From positions 1 through 25,313 of IMG/VR virus record IMGVR_UViG_3300006749_000112: a stretch of DNA of 25,313 bases. One strand, given 5' to 3'. This stretch comes from a virus. The first letter of the stretch is position 1, and the number at the start of each line of letters is the position of its first letter. Of this stretch, positions 1 through 10,171 are shown in pieces. The position numbers and the translations under genes are program-made. Under the pieces are notes generated by a model. That model saw only the letters and a program-made list of their open reading frames with translations. It did no database searches and was not told the DNA's origin.

Positions 1-11
1 ATGTTGTCCAT
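1..11 (-). CDS. start of a further left-arm gene, cut by window edge
   Basis: An ATG reads leftward from position 11 and only Met-Asp-Asn is visible before the window ends. The start is supported by context: the leader 11-mer shared by all left-arm transcription/processing units lies at 22-32, and a structured element (38-93) precedes it, exactly as for the genes starting at 748, 2189 and 3086. No product can be named. Confidence 0.45.
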
Positions 12-37
12 TGGTGTTGGATTGAAGTTTGAGATTT

Positions 38-93
38 AGAGTGTTCGTGTGTTACACTCTTCACTACGTTCAGAGTTGTAACACACTCACTCT
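38..93 (-). ncRNA. structured leader element H1 (hairpin family, unknown class)
   Basis: This is a long imperfect hairpin in the minus-strand transcript. Pairings are 38-43 with 88-93 (6 bp), an asymmetric internal loop (44-46 opposite 87, RNA GAA opposite A), 47-55 with 78-86 (9 bp), a one-base bulge at 77, 56-60 with 72-76 (5 bp), and an 11-base apical loop (61-71). It starts a few bases after the stop codon of the gene ending at 97 and is followed by the shared leader 11-mer. No U-run follows the stem, so it does not look like a Rho-independent terminator. The same architecture with different sequence recurs at 770-830, 2213-2268 and 3126-3178. Function is unknown. Confidence 0.7.
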
Positions 94-96
94 CTA

Positions 97-246
97 TTAG
101 GGGTTGAGGTCGAACTGAGTGTTCTTGAATGCCTCTTCGAGGCGCTTCTTGTTACCTGCATCCGCAGCATACCATGTATCAATGAGGCGGTATTCAAAGC
201 TACCGCAGTTCTGCTGTCGCAGTTCAAGCGTTTCGTGTTGTGTCAT
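97..246 (-). CDS. small hypothetical protein, 49 aa
   Basis: The reading frame is open further upstream, but I choose the ATG at 246 because it overlaps the TGA of the preceding gene as ATGA (246-243), the arrangement seen at two other junctions in this arm. That gives a 49-residue, fairly polar protein beginning MTQHETLELR with a central aromatic patch (FEYRLIDTWYAA). I do not recognise it. It is the third gene of a translationally coupled trio (748 to 97), so it is probably made together with its two upstream partners. The hairpin element H1 follows its stop. Confidence 0.6.
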   Translation of the reverse strand: MTQHETLELRQQNCGSFEYRLIDTWYAADAGNKKRLEEAFKNTQFDLNP

Positions 247-437
247 TTGTCTGTTGTTTCTACTCCCCACCACGCAATCTCTTCGTCGTGGATGCGGAAC
301 TCGTGGCATTCTTGCAGTTCGTTTTCCCATACCCCGACCCACACGCCGTGGTCGTCAGGTGCGCCCTGTATATGGGCGGCTTGGAATCCTTTTTTTTGCA
401 GTGCCTTGACTGCTGATTCGCATTGTTCTTGTGTCAT
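243..437 (-). CDS. small acidic hypothetical protein, 64 aa
   Basis: The start overlaps the stop of the gene at 434-748 as ATGA (437-434), and its own stop overlaps the start of the next gene the same way, so translation is probably coupled on both sides. The 64-residue product begins MTQEQCESAVKALQKKGF, a likely amphipathic helix, and continues into a Trp-rich acidic half (VWVGVWENEL, EEIAWWGVE). The N-terminal MTQ start is shared with the downstream 49-aa protein but the rest differs. Not recognised; probably an early or accessory phage protein. Confidence 0.7.
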   Translation of the reverse strand: MTQEQCESAVKALQKKGFQAAHIQGAPDDHGVWVGVWENELQECHEFRIHDEEIAWWGVETTDK

Positions 438-748
438 AGGTCAATGATTACGCCCTTGGATTCAAGAGCATCGGTGATAAATTCAGGGAGTTCGAAGCAT
501 CCATCGTACCCCGTGAGGCGTACATCTCCGTTGTCATCCCAATACACTTCGAGGATTCCGCCTGCATAGAAGCGGTCACCTCCCGTGTCAAGGTCGTAGG
601 TTTCGTACCACCCACCTGTTCCGTGGTTGGGGTCAATCTCTACGGTGGTGTCCATCTCTACGCCCGTGGCTCGGTCTATGTCAATGTCGTATGCCGTGGT
701 CATAGCTACGTGTGGTAGCGTGGTCTTGAAGTCTAGTTTGAATTTCAT
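434..748 (-). CDS. hypothetical protein, 104 aa
   Basis: The frame is open to about 826, but the upstream part only translates the leader. The ATG at 748 lies directly after the leader 11-mer (753-763), as in the other left-arm genes, so I take it as the start. The 104-residue product begins MKFKLDFKTT and is acidic and Asp/Gly/Tyr-rich (GTGGWYETYDLDTGG, LEVYWDDNGDVRL), suggesting a small beta-rich fold; the C-terminus is LPEFITDALESKG. There are no recognisable catalytic motifs. It is preceded by structured element H2 and overlaps the next gene by ATGA. Confidence 0.75.
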   Translation of the reverse strand: MKFKLDFKTTLPHVAMTTAYDIDIDRATGVEMDTTVEIDPNHGTGGWYETYDLDTGGDRFYAGGILEVYWDDNGDVRLTGYDGCFELPEFITDALESKGVIIDL

Positions 749-769
749 GGGGTTGAAGTTTGAGTGGTT

Positions 770-830
770 TAGTGTGTTCGTGTGTATCACTTCTACACTT
801 CGTTTAAGAAGGTGATACACACTCACACTA
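770..830 (-). ncRNA. structured leader element H2 (hairpin family, unknown class)
   Basis: Second member of the family. Pairings are 770-776 with 824-830 (7 bp), an internal loop 777-779 opposite 823 (RNA GAA opposite A, identical to H1), 780-790 with 812-822 (11 bp), a bulge at 811, 791-794 with 807-810 (4 bp), and a 12-base apical loop (795-806). It lies two bases after the TAA of the lipoprotein gene and just before the leader 11-mer of the gene starting at 748. Stem bases differ from H1 at many positions while pairing is kept, which argues for selection on structure. There is no U-tract. Confidence 0.72.
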
Positions 831-832
831 CA

Positions 833-985
833 TTAGTTGTAAGCGGCACATTCGGTGTTGCCAACAGGTTTGATGTACTGCGTATGTGCATCATATGTCG
901 TACAGCCTTGCAAAACGACTACGACCATCAGTGCCGCCATCCATGCGAGGAAGGCAAGGAACGCATAGTTAACTCGATTCTTCAT
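833..985 (-). CDS. small lipoprotein, 50 aa
   Basis: This 50-residue gene begins MKNRVNYAFL, followed by a hydrophobic stretch (residues 8-25, AFLAWMAALMVVVVL) and a lipobox LQGC at 25-28, so Cys28 is the expected lipidation site. The mature part is only about 23 residues and contains one more Cys. A tiny phage lipoprotein could be an outer-membrane spanin or a superinfection-exclusion factor, but no i-spanin partner is evident next to it, so neither role is claimed. It starts 25 bases after the stop of the 1011-1163 gene, without a leader 11-mer, so it probably shares that transcript. Element H2 follows. Confidence 0.72.
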   Translation of the reverse strand: MKNRVNYAFLAFLAWMAALMVVVVLQGCTTYDAHTQYIKPVGNTECAAYN

Positions 986-1010
986 GTAATATGTATTATG
1001 TGTTTGTGTT

Positions 1011-1163
1011 TCAGTTAGTTACGTTCCACACCTCATCAAAGATGAAGCGGTTTTCTCTACGCATATATGATACGTAGTTGTCGTAGTGGTTTTTGTCTTT
1101 GAATGTTTTAACAACAACAAACTTTCTTCCGTTAGGGATGATGAATTGTATTTTCTTTGTCAT
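1011..1163 (-). CDS. small basic hypothetical protein, 50 aa
   Basis: The ATG at 1163 overlaps the TGA of the upstream gene as ATGA (1163-1160), giving a 50-residue basic protein that begins MTKKIQFIIPNGRKFVVVKT. A beta-strand-like N-terminus is followed by an aromatic/basic segment (KNHYDNYVSYMRRENRF) and ends DEVWNVTN. Coding is supported by the start/stop overlap, the absence of a leader element at this junction, and the tight packing with neighbours. Not recognised. Confidence 0.65.
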   Translation of the reverse strand: MTKKIQFIIPNGRKFVVVKTFKDKNHYDNYVSYMRRENRFIFDEVWNVTN

Positions 1164-1762
1164 GTCCATAGTTCTCTGATGACCAACCATACCACAGCTT
1201 GCAAATGTGCAGGGGCATACCCCATGTCATATGAGATGCGTTGGAACTTGCGTTCCAATAGGTCGTATTGCTTCGGTGTAATCTGGTTGTCCAAGTTCTT
1301 CCGAGTCTTCGACTTGGTCTGAAAGCTGTACACCATCCATGTATCAATCGTGACAGCATTCATATCAAATGCACCCACATTCAAAGCGAATCGGTGAGTC
1401 TTTCGGCTTGCTTCGTGGACTTGAATCAGTCCCTTTGCAATGTTGAATGCCTTGACCTTGTTGGAATTGAAGGTGCTGACCTTCACACGATCGTGTGATA
1501 CGTCATCATGTACAGCTTGAAAGACGTTCCAAGCATCAATCTTGTTTCGTTCCCATCTGTTTCTCGGAGAGAGAGCCGAGATGACTCCCCCTGCACGGAG
1601 TGGTGATATGTCGAATTCATTGGACAGCATCAGAGCAAAGCCCTTGGCTTCGTCGTACCATGCCACACCATCTTGTATGACATCATCCGTTGCCATGTCA
1701 TGCCAATGTGATACGTTGCTACGCATCTTTGACATCATCTTGTCAAATGTTTTTGGATTCAT
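1160..1762 (-). CDS. conserved phage protein, 200 aa (DUF7178-like)
   Basis: The start is placed at 1762, after the leader 11-mer (1773-1783) and 25 bases downstream of the predicted cleavage site of hammerhead 1. The 200-aa product carries GVISALSPRNRWERNKIDAW around residues 58-77, VTIDTWMVYSF near 138-148, and a C-terminal YAPAHLQAVVWLVIRE. From memory this pattern (ISALSP...W..N, a basic KVKAFNIAKG segment, VTIDTW, QAVVW) resembles a phage family annotated DUF7178, sometimes likened to helix-hairpin-helix DNA glycosylase folds. The family link is moderate and no activity is claimed. It overlaps the next gene by ATGA. Confidence 0.8.
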   Translation of the reverse strand: MNPKTFDKMMSKMRSNVSHWHDMATDDVIQDGVAWYDEAKGFALMLSNEFDISPLRAGGVISALSPRNRWERNKIDAWNVFQAVHDDVSHDRVKVSTFNSNKVKAFNIAKGLIQVHEASRKTHRFALNVGAFDMNAVTIDTWMVYSFQTKSKTRKNLDNQITPKQYDLLERKFQRISYDMGYAPAHLQAVVWLVIRELWT

Positions 1763-1781
1763 CGTAGATGATTTGAAGTTT

Positions 1782-1833
1782 GATACAGACACCCCGAAGG
1801 GTGTTTCGTCCACTCAGGACTCGTCAGTGTACC
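1782..1833 (-). ncRNA. hammerhead ribozyme 1 (type I)
   Basis: All core elements of a type I hammerhead are present in the minus-strand RNA. Stem I is 1833-1828 with 1787-1782 (6 bp, one G-U). The core CUGACGA is 1827-1821. Stem II is 1820-1817 with 1811-1808 (GUCC/GGAC, loop UGAGU), then GAA at 1807-1805. Stem III is 1804-1799 with 1794-1789 (ACACCC/GGGUGU, loop UUCG). The cleavage triplet GUC ends at C 1788, so cleavage is expected between 1788 and 1787, leaving a 25-base leader with the shared 11-mer before the AUG at 1762. The UGA stop of the upstream gene (1826-1824) is part of the catalytic CUGA. Confidence 0.92.
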
Positions 1834-2189
1834 TCGATTGAGCTTGCGTTGTTGAAGTCGTAGATGGCTTTTTCGTTTCTTGCCTTAGCAAGTTCCATTG
1901 CCACATAGTGTGACCTGACTACGTCAGAAAGTTCGAGATAGAAGAACCCTTGGTCATCGACCCATCCACCTATCACTTGGAACGGGTCACCATGTGATGA
2001 CGCTTGGATTTTTTTGAACTCTTGTTCAAATGCAATGAATGACAGCGATTCATTGGCACATTTGAACAGCTTGCAGTCAGCGGCTCCGCCGACAGCGTAG
2101 CCAAGTCCGTTATATGTCATTCCGTCTGTCTTGACGCTGAACCCCTCACCGCTTTGGATGAGGTGATACAATGATTGTGTTGAGGCCAT
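1824..2189 (-). CDS. hypothetical protein, 121 aa
   Basis: It starts at the ATG at 2189, just after the leader 11-mer (2194-2204), and stops inside hammerhead 1. The 121-residue product begins MASTQSLYHLIQSGEGFSVK and shows mixed alpha/beta character: a Gly/Ala-rich turn (YNGLGYAVGGAADCK), a segment FIAFEQEFKKIQ, a strand-rich FQVIGGWVDDQGFFYLEL, and a helical C-terminus. Not recognised. The coding sequence holds several short hairpins (1879-1892, 1915-1927, 2013-2030, 2033-2055), fewer per length than the promoter-proximal genes. Structured element H3 precedes it. Confidence 0.75.
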   Translation of the reverse strand: MASTQSLYHLIQSGEGFSVKTDGMTYNGLGYAVGGAADCKLFKCANESLSFIAFEQEFKKIQASSHGDPFQVIGGWVDDQGFFYLELSDVVRSHYVAMELAKARNEKAIYDFNNASSIEVH

Positions 2190-2212
2190 GGTGTTGAAGT
2201 TTGAAGGTTTAT

Positions 2213-2268
2213 GGGTGGTTCGTATATCACTCTATTCGTAAGAACTCATAGAGTGTATATACTCACCC
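2213..2268 (-). ncRNA. structured leader element H3 (hairpin family, unknown class)
   Basis: Third member: 2213-2217 with 2264-2268 (5 bp), an internal loop 2218-2221 opposite 2263, 2222-2227 with 2257-2262 (6 bp), a bulge at 2256, 2228-2235 with 2248-2255 (8 bp), and a 12-base apical loop TCGTAAGAACTC on the plus strand (2236-2247), almost identical to the H4 loop. The outer stem overlaps the TGA of the upstream 34-aa gene (2265-2263). The leader 11-mer and the start at 2189 follow. There is no U-tract. Confidence 0.7.
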
Positions 2269-2367
2269 CCCAATGTTGTCGTTTTGGTTGTGGTTGGCAT
2301 CGACCCATATCATGATGAGTATGATACCTGCGATTGGCATGAGCATGCCGTAGAGAATAATGTCCAT
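2263..2367 (-). CDS. small membrane peptide, 34 aa
   Basis: The ATG at 2367 follows the leader 11-mer (2380-2390) and sits 27 bases after the predicted cut site of hammerhead 2. The 34-residue product begins MDIILYGMLMPIAGIILIMI, one likely transmembrane helix (about residues 2-22), and ends with a short polar tail (DANHNQNDNIGG). Single-pass mini-proteins of this kind occur in phage early and lysis regions, but nothing here identifies a specific role. The frame is open upstream through the ribozyme, but that translation would read the ribozyme and leader and is not preferred. Confidence 0.6.
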   Translation of the reverse strand: MDIILYGMLMPIAGIILIMIWVDANHNQNDNIGG

Positions 2368-2388
2368 CGTAGATGAAGTTTGAAGTTT

Positions 2389-2444
2389 GACACAGACACC
2401 CCCCGAAGGGGGTGTTTCGGCTATTGAAGCCTCGTCAGTGTGCC
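2389..2444 (-). ncRNA. hammerhead ribozyme 2 (type I)
   Basis: A second complete hammerhead in minus-strand RNA. Stem I is 2444-2439 with 2394-2389 (GGCACA/UGUGUC, 6 bp with one G-U). The core CUGACGA is 2438-2432. Stem II is 2431-2428 with 2422-2419 (GGCU/AGCC, loop UCAAU), then GAA 2418-2416. Stem III is 2415-2408 with 2403-2396 (8 bp, loop UUCG), and the GUC triplet ends at C 2395. Stems I, II and III differ from ribozyme 1 by compensating changes, and stem III is two pairs longer. It begins 12 bases after the stop of the 209-aa gene. Cleavage between 2395 and 2394 would leave a 27-base leader before the AUG at 2367. Confidence 0.93.
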
Positions 2445-2456
2445 TGTCATATGATA

Positions 2457-3086
2457 TCACATCATGTCACGGAGTTCACGGAGTGACAAGTCAGAGAATG
2501 AAACCTCATTGGATGTTCCATCCAAGGGGAACTCTGCATCAAGCTTCGCTTGGAAAGCTTTGAGGACTTCAGCCTTACGAGCTAAAGCTCGTTGACGGAT
2601 TCTCTCATCACTGCCGTTGGCTTCGCCAAGCTGTTGAACTGACTGCCGAGCAGCTTCTACCGAAGCTGTCTTAGCCTTGGAACAAGGCTTGACTGGGCTG
2701 TCAGCCTTTCCATGAAAGGCTTTCTCTTGTCTGTCAGCAACTCGTTGCTGTGGAGTAGCTTTCTTGATGGTCGTCTTACGACGACGCTTCGGCTTGGCCT
2801 TAGCCTTCGGCTTGGTCTTGGTCACCTTCGGTGCATCGGGCATCATACCCTGTGACATGAGGAACTGCTTGAACAACTCCATCATCTCATCAGTCCCTTG
2901 GGACTGCTTGTCAGATGTCTTTGACTTGGTTGCCTTCGGCAACTCGATGGCTTCAACGAACTCAGAGAGTTCTTTGATGGCTTGTCTTGCTTGACCCTTT
3001 CTCACCGTTGACGGTGAGAAGTAGAACTCATTGACTGAAACTGAAACTGCTTTCAGCAGTTCGACTCTGTTGGTTGACTTTTTCAT
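2457..3086 (-). CDS. Lys/Arg-rich hypothetical protein, 209 aa
   Basis: It starts at the ATG at 3086, after the leader 11-mer (3106-3116); longer frames only translate the leader. The N-terminal 50 or so residues are predicted helical and contain PSTVRK, similar in spacing and content to PSMVRK in the neighbouring 178-aa protein, suggesting a shared N-terminal domain. Next come a Met-rich stretch (MMELFKQFLMSQGMM), a highly basic linker (about residues 105-130, KAKAKPKRRRK), and a helical C-terminal half ending DLSLRELRDMM. The basic linker suggests nucleic-acid contact, which is inference. The coding sequence is itself dense in perfect short hairpins. Confidence 0.75.
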   Translation of the reverse strand: MKKSTNRVELLKAVSVSVNEFYFSPSTVRKGQARQAIKELSEFVEAIELPKATKSKTSDKQSQGTDEMMELFKQFLMSQGMMPDAPKVTKTKPKAKAKPKRRRKTTIKKATPQQRVADRQEKAFHGKADSPVKPCSKAKTASVEAARQSVQQLGEANGSDERIRQRALARKAEVLKAFQAKLDAEFPLDGTSNEVSFSDLSLRELRDMM

Positions 3087-3097
3087 TGGAAATGAAA
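2509..3097 (-). repeat. array of perfect short hairpins within a coding sequence
   Basis: At least 15 perfect inverted repeats with stems of 5-9 bp and loops of 3-4 bases lie in 589 bases of one gene: 2509-2525, 2540-2552, 2577-2592, 2617-2629, 2651-2668, 2673-2689, 2703-2721, 2735-2750, 2770-2785, 2891-2906, 2929-2943, 2958-2972, 2999-3020, 3045-3061 and 3081-3097. The last encloses the start codon. Sequences differ from hairpin to hairpin, so this is not one repeated unit. The commonest loop is TTC on the plus strand (GAA in RNA). Confidence 0.85.
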
Positions 3098-3125
3098 TTT
3101 GAAAATTGAAGTTTGAATGGTTTGG

Positions 3126-3178
3126 GAGGGTCCTCTCTGACACTCTTCGTAAGACTCAGAGTGTCTGAGAGTCCCCTC
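3126..3178 (-). ncRNA. structured leader element H4 (hairpin family, unknown class)
   Basis: Fourth member: 3126-3130 with 3174-3178 (5 bp), a 2x2 internal loop (3131-3132 opposite 3172-3173; RNA GA opposite GA), 3133-3137 with 3167-3171 (5 bp), a mismatch (3138/3166), 3139-3146 with 3158-3165 (8 bp), and an 11-base apical loop TCGTAAGACTC on the plus strand. It lies between the genes ending at 3202 and starting at 3086, followed by the leader 11-mer. It differs from H1-H3 in having a symmetric internal loop. There is no U-tract. Confidence 0.68.
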
Positions 3179-3201
3179 AGTTGGTCGGCAATCTCTCTGC
3201 T

Positions 3202-3738
3202 TTAGCAGAGTTCGAATCGTCGGAGTTTCTCTTCCAAGGGAAGAGCATTGGCTTTCTCATATTCCTCTTCGAGGAATGTGCATTGGAATTTCATTCCAAA
3301 GGGCTCAAGCAAAGCTTGAATCTTACTGATGTAAACATCAGTATTGGAGGCTTCATCACAATCTACGAAGTAGATAGTGCCATCTTCGTCGGTTTCGAAA
3401 TCTGCAAGATTTTCGAAGTCAAGTAGAAGTTCAAGCCATTCATCGACTTCGTCGAATACTGCCTTCGGCAGTTCAATCTTGTCCTTCGGACAAGTCAAAG
3501 ACATCGTTTCACCTTCGGTGAACATGAAGTCCCATTCAGTCATAAGATGACTGATGTTCAGTACCTCTGGAAGAGGTTCTGATGGATAGTCCCAAGATTC
3601 CATTGGAACCTCTTCGAGGTTCTCAATGACCTTCAGAGCTTCTTTCAGAAGCTTGATGGCATGGTTCTTACGAACCATGGATGGATGGTTGATGGCTTGG
3701 TTTGCAGCTTTAGCTGCAGCTGTTGCTGAGTACTTCAT
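3202..3738 (-). CDS. acidic hypothetical protein, 178 aa
   Basis: I place the start at 3738, ten bases after the upstream TAA, where the bases before the ATG resemble those before the ATG at 3940; an in-frame ATG at 3768 inside the upstream gene is the alternative (188 aa). The N-terminus is Ala-rich and helical (YSATAAAKAANQAINHPSMV) and shares PS-x-VRK with the 209-aa protein. The rest is acidic, with strand-like DGTIYFVDCDE near residue 125, IQALLEPFG (a motif repeated in the 63-aa upstream protein) and a Glu-rich helical C-terminus. Not recognised. Its sequence is saturated with short hairpins, and element H4 follows. Confidence 0.75.
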   Translation of the reverse strand: MKYSATAAAKAANQAINHPSMVRKNHAIKLLKEALKVIENLEEVPMESWDYPSEPLPEVLNISHLMTEWDFMFTEGETMSLTCPKDKIELPKAVFDEVDEWLELLLDFENLADFETDEDGTIYFVDCDEASNTDVYISKIQALLEPFGMKFQCTFLEEEYEKANALPLEEKLRRFELC

Positions 3739-3748
3739 CTTCGATGAA

Positions 3749-3940
3749 TTAGTGGTTTTCGATTTCATCTACGATGACAGCTTGCTCTTCGGTACTGAGT
3801 TCACAGAACTCAAGACAGAGCCAAAGGCTCTCTATGTCAGCAGTCCAAAACAGCTCAAGCAAAGCTTGAATACGGGCTTCAGTCAGTGTAACTGACTGCT
3901 TGTAAGACTCTTTCAGAGTCTGAGTGTTGATTGATTTCAT
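3749..3940 (-). CDS. small acidic hypothetical protein, 63 aa
   Basis: This is the first gene behind the leftward promoter. Its ATG at 3940 lies after the leader 11-mer (3951-3961), and a short hairpin (3965-3976) stands near the expected 5' end. The 63-residue product is predicted helical, begins MKSINTQTLKESYKQSVTLT, contains RIQALLELFW (shared IQALLE with the next protein, encoded by the same 15-base hairpin) and ends in an acidic helix EEQAVIVDEIENH. Not recognised. Six perfect hairpins lie in its 192 bases. Confidence 0.72.
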   Translation of the reverse strand: MKSINTQTLKESYKQSVTLTEARIQALLELFWTADIESLWLCLEFCELSTEEQAVIVDEIENH

Positions 3941-3980
3941 CGGAGATGAATTGAAGTTTGAGTTGGCAAGATTGCCGCTG

Positions 3981-4012
3981 CAAAGGTATGGTCAACTTTC
4001 GGCAAAATCCAA
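3981..4012 (-). promoter_or_regulatory. Bacteroidota-type promoter for the left arm
   Basis: On the minus strand, TACCTTTG (3988-3981) matches the -7 consensus TAnnTTTG, with TTG (4012-4010) 21 bases upstream as the -33 element. The transcript would start near 3975 with a hairpin (3965-3976) and then the leader 11-mer. I saw no equally good leftward box between later genes in this arm, so it may drive the whole cluster. Confidence 0.75.
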
Positions 4013-10086: not shown

Positions 10087-10160
10087 GCGCCTGTAGCTCA
10101 ACAGGATAGAGCAGCGCACTTCTAATGCGCAGGTTTCAGGTTCGAGTCCTGACAGGCGCA
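10087..10160 (+). tRNA. tRNA-Arg (anticodon UCU)
   Basis: A full cloverleaf can be drawn: acceptor GCGCCTG (10087-10093) with CAGGCGC (10153-10159); D arm GCTC/GAGC (10096-10112) with loop AACAGGATA; anticodon arm GCGCA/TGCGC with loop CTTCTAA, anticodon TCT at 10121-10123; T arm CAGG-TTCGAGT-CCTG; discriminator A. CCA is not encoded. It reads AGA/AGG, and AGA is frequent in the phage genes here, so it may offset host codon bias. It sits 11 bases before the terminase ATG. Confidence 0.95.
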
Positions 10161-10171
10161 CAATTTAATTC

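Follow-up and report, generated by a model that had tools for sequence, protein, structure and literature searches.

The window analysed here, the full length of an IMG/VR virus record (25,313 bases) in which the genes of positions 1-4000 lie on the minus strand, carries on that strand, from 1833 to 1782, what its sequence identifies as a canonical type I hammerhead (ribozyme 1). The codon that ends the 121-aa gene upstream is at the same time the UGA of the CUGACGA core of this ribozyme, just as a sequence-only reading of the same DNA had placed it, with correct coordinates (1826-1824, minus strand). In a phage transcript, ribozyme 1 probably serves as a site of mRNA processing between cistrons; its core would have come to hold the stop codon through loss of a spacer. 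The in-core stop is recurrent; it is neither unique to the window nor conserved within homologous groups, and it has the look of a genome packed economically around a site of RNA cutting, not that of a conserved translation switch.

Ribozyme 1 and its phage relatives

In ribozyme 1 (Table 1), three helices are arranged around CUGANGA, GAA and A-U, with NUH at the cleavage site. Stem I has 6 bp, stem II 4 bp and stem III 6 bp and, as in type I hammerheads, helix I is open-ended, with strands at both ends, and helices II and III are closed. The last two sense codons of the upstream gene, GUA CAC, had been taken as one strand of stem I; five of these six bases (GUACA) do belong to that stem, and the sixth is C3 of the core. 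In silico folding in longer context reduces the modelled probability of stem I to ~0.25-0.5, and it is still the minimum-energy fold. The element resembles Hammerhead_1 of Rfam (RF00163) in its open stem I, closed stems II and III, CUGANGA...GAA and cleavage after UC, with model positions 1-45 of 45 aligned, and differs from it in a 6-bp stem I without evident internal-loop partner, in the gene's stop inside the core and in the fixed phage leader downstream. Its score against this model (21.2 bits) is below the gathering score of 34, which we judge to be a limit of the model, as all core features are present.

Across 31 distinct copies aligned from phage relatives, 98.6% of the cells are paired, and double changes of the compensatory kind are found at 11 of the 16 ribozyme pairs; slid controls, in which partners were shifted by one to three columns, gave pairing of 24% to at most 51.8% and no more than four pairs with double changes. 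These data also bear on the proposal that the structure is a non-cleaving relic or a protein-binding hairpin and its overlap with the gene of no consequence, a proposal to which the failure of both ribozymes in the window to attain their Rfam gathering scores would lend weight. We regard it as extremely improbable, because a relic would lose the unpaired core, which is kept here: every catalytic position (CUGANGA, GAA, the A-U before the cut and the cleavage-site C) is intact and invariant in the relatives, and the stems covary. In alignment A1, loop II UGUAU co-occurs with the stem I variant GGUACU/AGUAUC (last stem I pair), a pairing-up that hints at a tertiary contact between loop II and stem I.

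A first scan used a sequence pattern of the core plus leader, followed by a structure check. Fifty of its 60 matches in viral sequences hold a hammerhead that passes this check, compared with none of the 80 that it returned for bacterial and archaeal contigs in GTDB (257 Gb). A chance hammerhead was rejected on the covariation and on this genome-contig control, and a host or prophage origin was rejected on the absence of true hammerheads among the genome-contig matches returned. A covariance model of the element, R1, finds one to four copies per record in 47 of 50 related phage records, and a second scan, run without the leader requirement, added phages with other leaders, for a total of 111 distinct hammerheads at 78 loci. 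Direct tandems of two hammerhead-like motifs ~50 nt apart, the second weak by the model, were also encountered (L009 / G005:C1:21596-21695, G036:C1:10458-10557).

The terminase of the window is nearest to that of a Manatee Spring podovirus (47%), then to those of Flavobacterium elemoviruses (39%), relatives that make a Bacteroidota host likely. Positions 1160-4000 have no DNA match in named phages, and the first 50 kb of that podovirus hold no hammerhead and the sequence CAAACUUC only twice, never as AAACUUCAA. A tRNA-Arg gene (anticodon TCT) lies at 10087-10161 on the plus strand, just before the terminase gene.

Table 1. Positions of the ribozymes, neighbouring genes, leader and hairpins in the window
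Feature	Position	Strand	Description or basis
Hammerhead ribozyme 1, type I	1782..1833	minus	sequence features, covariation, model R1
Ribozyme 1, stem I 5' strand	1833-1828	minus	GGUACA
Ribozyme 1, core	1827-1821	minus	CUGACGA; UGA at 1826-1824
UGA shared by 121-aa gene (stop) and core (invariant UGA of CUGANGA)	1824..1826	minus	ORF and ribozyme sequence
Ribozyme 1, stem II	1820-1817 / 1811-1808	minus	GUCC / GGAC; loop UGAGU
Ribozyme 1, GAA	1807-1805	minus
Ribozyme 1, stem III	1804-1799 / 1794-1789	minus	ACACCC / GGGUGU; loop UUCG
Ribozyme 1, cleavage-site C	1788	minus	predicted cut 1788^1787
Ribozyme 1, stem I 3' strand	1787-1782	minus	UGUAUC
Leader motif CAAACUUCAA	1773..1782	minus	exact copies; right after stem I, first C is last stem I base
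Downstream gene, DUF7178	1160..1762	minus	PF23802, E 2.5e-32; ATG at 1762, 25 nt after cleavage site
Upstream 121-aa gene	1824..2189	minus	ORF ending ...GAG GUA CAC UGA; full-length homologues
Hammerhead ribozyme 2	2389..2444	minus	cleavage 2395^2394
228-aa ORF upstream of ribozyme 2	2457..3143	minus	ORF
Small gene downstream of ribozyme 2	2263..2367	minus	34 aa from ATG
Hairpin just 5' of ribozyme 2	2451..2465	minus	AUGAUG-UGA-UAUCAU; loop is stop of 228-aa gene; layout like RF03152 match
Long conserved hairpin in the hammerhead's place	2212..2272	minus	before leader of 121-aa gene
Long conserved hairpin	3126..3178	minus	before leader of 228-aa gene
Long conserved hairpin	771..830	minus	before leader
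Long conserved hairpin	38..95	minus	before leader

Where the upstream genes stop

Full-length homologues of its product at loci L015 (50% identical) and L054 (54%) mark the 121-aa ORF as a real gene. The protein matched no family in Pfam and, among named phages, gave a single match that is weak and partial. The C-termini of the three proteins align to the last residues (SIEVH, SIDVK and SIYVKF), and both homologous genes also end at a hammerhead, with a UAA at -12 in L015 and a UGA at -9 in L054 when the core C3 is numbered 0. The L015 locus reads GAC GUC AAG UAA UCA GGUACU CUGAUGA against GAG GUA CAC UGA CGA in the window. That the homologues share the C-terminus and yet terminate 12 or 9 nt ahead of the core is consistent with a short spacer having been lost in the lineage of the window.

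To call upstream genes, long ORFs from the hammerhead loci were used to train a codon model, which gave a callable gene at 96 junctions representing 48 upstream-protein clusters. Their stops fall at -41 to -18 (31 junctions), -17 to -15 (11), -12 to -3 (31), +1 (20) and +11, in loop II (3), and all 96 called genes terminate before the predicted cut. The commonest single position is +1, the core UGA, which is used in 12 of the 48 clusters. Homologous groups combine +1 with -9, -11, -19 or -23; four of the six multi-member clusters with an in-core stop are mixed, and two upstream clusters of 3-4 members retain it throughout.

A gene cut before its stop would give a non-stop message. CUGANGA always has a UGA in one frame and therefore a gene entering the ribozyme in that frame is safe; because of the non-stop message, it is the only safe frame unless loop II holds a stop. 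Counted from stem I onwards, a stop ahead of the cut is present in the core frame of 111/111 hammerheads and in the other two frames of 60/111 and 67/111. One could suppose pure coincidence of frame, with hammerheads located where genes end and a third of frames meeting the core UGA with zero preference: any ORF that enters the core frame must end there, and stop positions are spread as widely as -41 to +11. This explanation is decidedly unlikely and already disfavoured by the counts. Among genes reaching the core or beyond, 20 end at the core UGA and 3 in loop II, which gives p 1.6e-7 if one third is expected; clusters show the same bias, with 12 of 15 in the core frame (p 3e-4) and, even after weighting by stop availability, the preference stands at p 7e-5 for the 20 of 23 genes and at p 0.009 for the 12 of 15 clusters. 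Stop availability by frame thus explains much of the 20-to-3 bias and leaves a residual preference, and some factor beyond availability may favour the core frame.

Terminating ribosomes at the ribozyme

The 3' edge of an E. coli-like ribosome lies ~15 nt past the first P-site base. By this footprint arithmetic, a ribosome terminating with the core UGA in its A site would cover the core together with the 5' strands of stems I and II, an occupancy that the sequence-only reading had anticipated. That reading had further proposed that cleavage is coupled to upstream translation, such that ribosomes ending at the core UGA keep stem I and the core open and thereby postpone the cut, and with it the freeing of the DUF7178 mRNA, for as long as the 121-aa gene is translated; it had named the persistence of the overlap in homologues as a check, and a stop outside the core at homologous loci as one of two outcomes that would refute it. 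The comparison gives the proposal no support and shows the latter outcome, the two homologues stopping at -12 and -9. We consider such coupling unlikely, even though, beyond the footprint itself, the in-core stop is recurrent, over-represented among overlapping genes and kept throughout the two clusters mentioned above. Most of the clusters that could display conservation are mixed, and ribozyme 2, also in the window, has its upstream stop (2459-2457) outside the core, at a distance of 21 nt upstream of C3. As a conserved function, translational coupling was rejected on the ground that homologues shift the stop; a stop inside the ribozyme and kept in homologues, as expected of a translation-coupled switch, was not what the homologues displayed.

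When the same arithmetic is applied to all 96 junctions, the terminating ribosome lies over stem I, core and stem II at 25 of them, over stem I plus some of the core at 29, touches the outer part of stem I at 12 and clears the ribozyme altogether at 30; masking therefore cannot be a requirement of the family. A ribosome stopping at -9 to -12 would sit over stem I and the core edge, and one stopping at -19 or further would be clear. On these estimates, transient masking by ribosomes is possible in about half of the junctions and, as a terminating ribosome at -9 and -12 would still occupy stem I, so is weak coupling. We think it hardly likely that, in phages with a stop in the core or within ~12 nt of it, terminating ribosomes act as a brake on self-cleavage, the mRNAs separating only as upstream translation slackens; were this true, a stop codon and a ribozyme core would together make a timing switch that is protein-free and ligand-free.

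Ribozyme 2 aligns end to end with the RAGATH-1 model (RF03152), including the hairpin upstream of stem I, at a score of 28.2 bits that falls under the gathering score of 56.3 and hence short of membership in RAGATH-1; ribozyme 1 differs from RAGATH-1 in being without a clear upstream hairpin. About 20 hammerheads in related loci are likewise preceded, directly 5' of stem I, by a perfect hairpin whose loop holds the stop of the upstream gene; examples are GATTGATAT-GTA-ATATCAATT, ACTGCT-GAA-AGCAGT and ACAGC-TAA-GCTGT, the stem sequences differing between phages.

A probable processing site between phage genes

As an intercistronic processing site, ribozyme 1 would cut the polycistronic RNA between 1788 and 1787 in the cell. 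The upstream mRNA would retain its stop codon, with the hairpins of stems II and III closing its new 3' end, and the downstream DUF7178 mRNA would receive a defined 25-nt leader with CAAACUUCAA. The spacer between the 121-aa gene and the ribozyme would have been lost, putatively by deletion, placing the stop in the catalytic core, and the core UGA, as the sole stop present before the cut in every hammerhead, would have been reused on compaction. Hammerheads would in this way give each gene or small gene group its own mRNA with a set leader.

The leader motif CAAACUUCAA occurs as seven exact copies in the window, all on the minus strand between 22 and 3960, with an ATG within ~30 nt after each. 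Of 100 junctions, 62 have 25-27 nt between cut and ATG; for those with the CAAACUUC leader, the figure is 42 of 50. In three other phages, the genes of DUF7178 homologues (71-74% identical) are not preceded by a hammerhead, and therefore ribozyme and downstream gene do not travel together. Gene junctions of other phages (L181-L228) with other leaders, e.g., CAAAUAUUAA and CAAACUAAAA, also carry hammerheads of this layout, so that the arrangement extends beyond the CAAACUUCAA clade. The genes served by these junctions are presumably early genes, judging by how small they are and where they lie.

At other junctions, covarying long hairpins usually appear to substitute for the hammerhead before the same CAAACUUCAA leader. 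These hairpins, four of which lie in the window, have ~20 bp, an asymmetric internal loop that is conserved (GAGU / ACGAA) and apical loops that recur (CUGAACGUAGUGA, CUGAGUUUACGAAG), and an alignment of 15 of them has kept double changes at 15 of 18 pairs. In related phages, leader sites followed by an ORF were counted with a simple energy cut-off: 97 have a strong predicted hairpin in front of them and 45 a hammerhead. The long hairpins found no match in Rfam; they are possibly RNase III-type sites or an undescribed RNA motif. In phage T7, RNase III processing sites are located between the early genes as structured intercistronic elements. The junctions described here resemble them as structured intercistronic elements predicted to cut a polycistronic early mRNA into units; unlike the T7 sites, a hammerhead needs no protein, and the cutting of the long hairpins by RNase III is putative.

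According to earlier accounts, bacterial and phage hammerheads are found in phage intergenic regions, where they often lie near each other on either side of small ORFs (Perreault et al., 2011; PMC3088659), a link to phages also noted in a 2017 review (PMC6155905). Some lie upstream of early genes, as in haloviruses HF1/HF2, 13 nt before the helicase start, and the purpose of phage and prophage hammerheads is described as open (PMC3088659; PMC6155905). In these passages, a stop codon in the core is not described for their hammerheads, and the words "stop codon" are absent from PMC3088659; a search of the open-access literature found no paper describing a stop codon in a hammerhead core. We rate ribozyme 1 itself as ordinary and its genomic setting as well-defined, recurrent and partly new.

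For the question of what bacterial and phage hammerheads are for, the setting here is unusually clear: in dozens of phages, the ribozyme occupies one point of the junction, with a fixed leader and start distance, and is interchangeable with a covarying hairpin. This fixed setting makes "mRNA processing element" a directly testable function. Where the core UGA serves as the stop, a catalytic sequence and a reading frame share bases, and the natural homologues with the stop inside and outside the core offer material for testing the effect of ribosomes on ribozyme cleavage.
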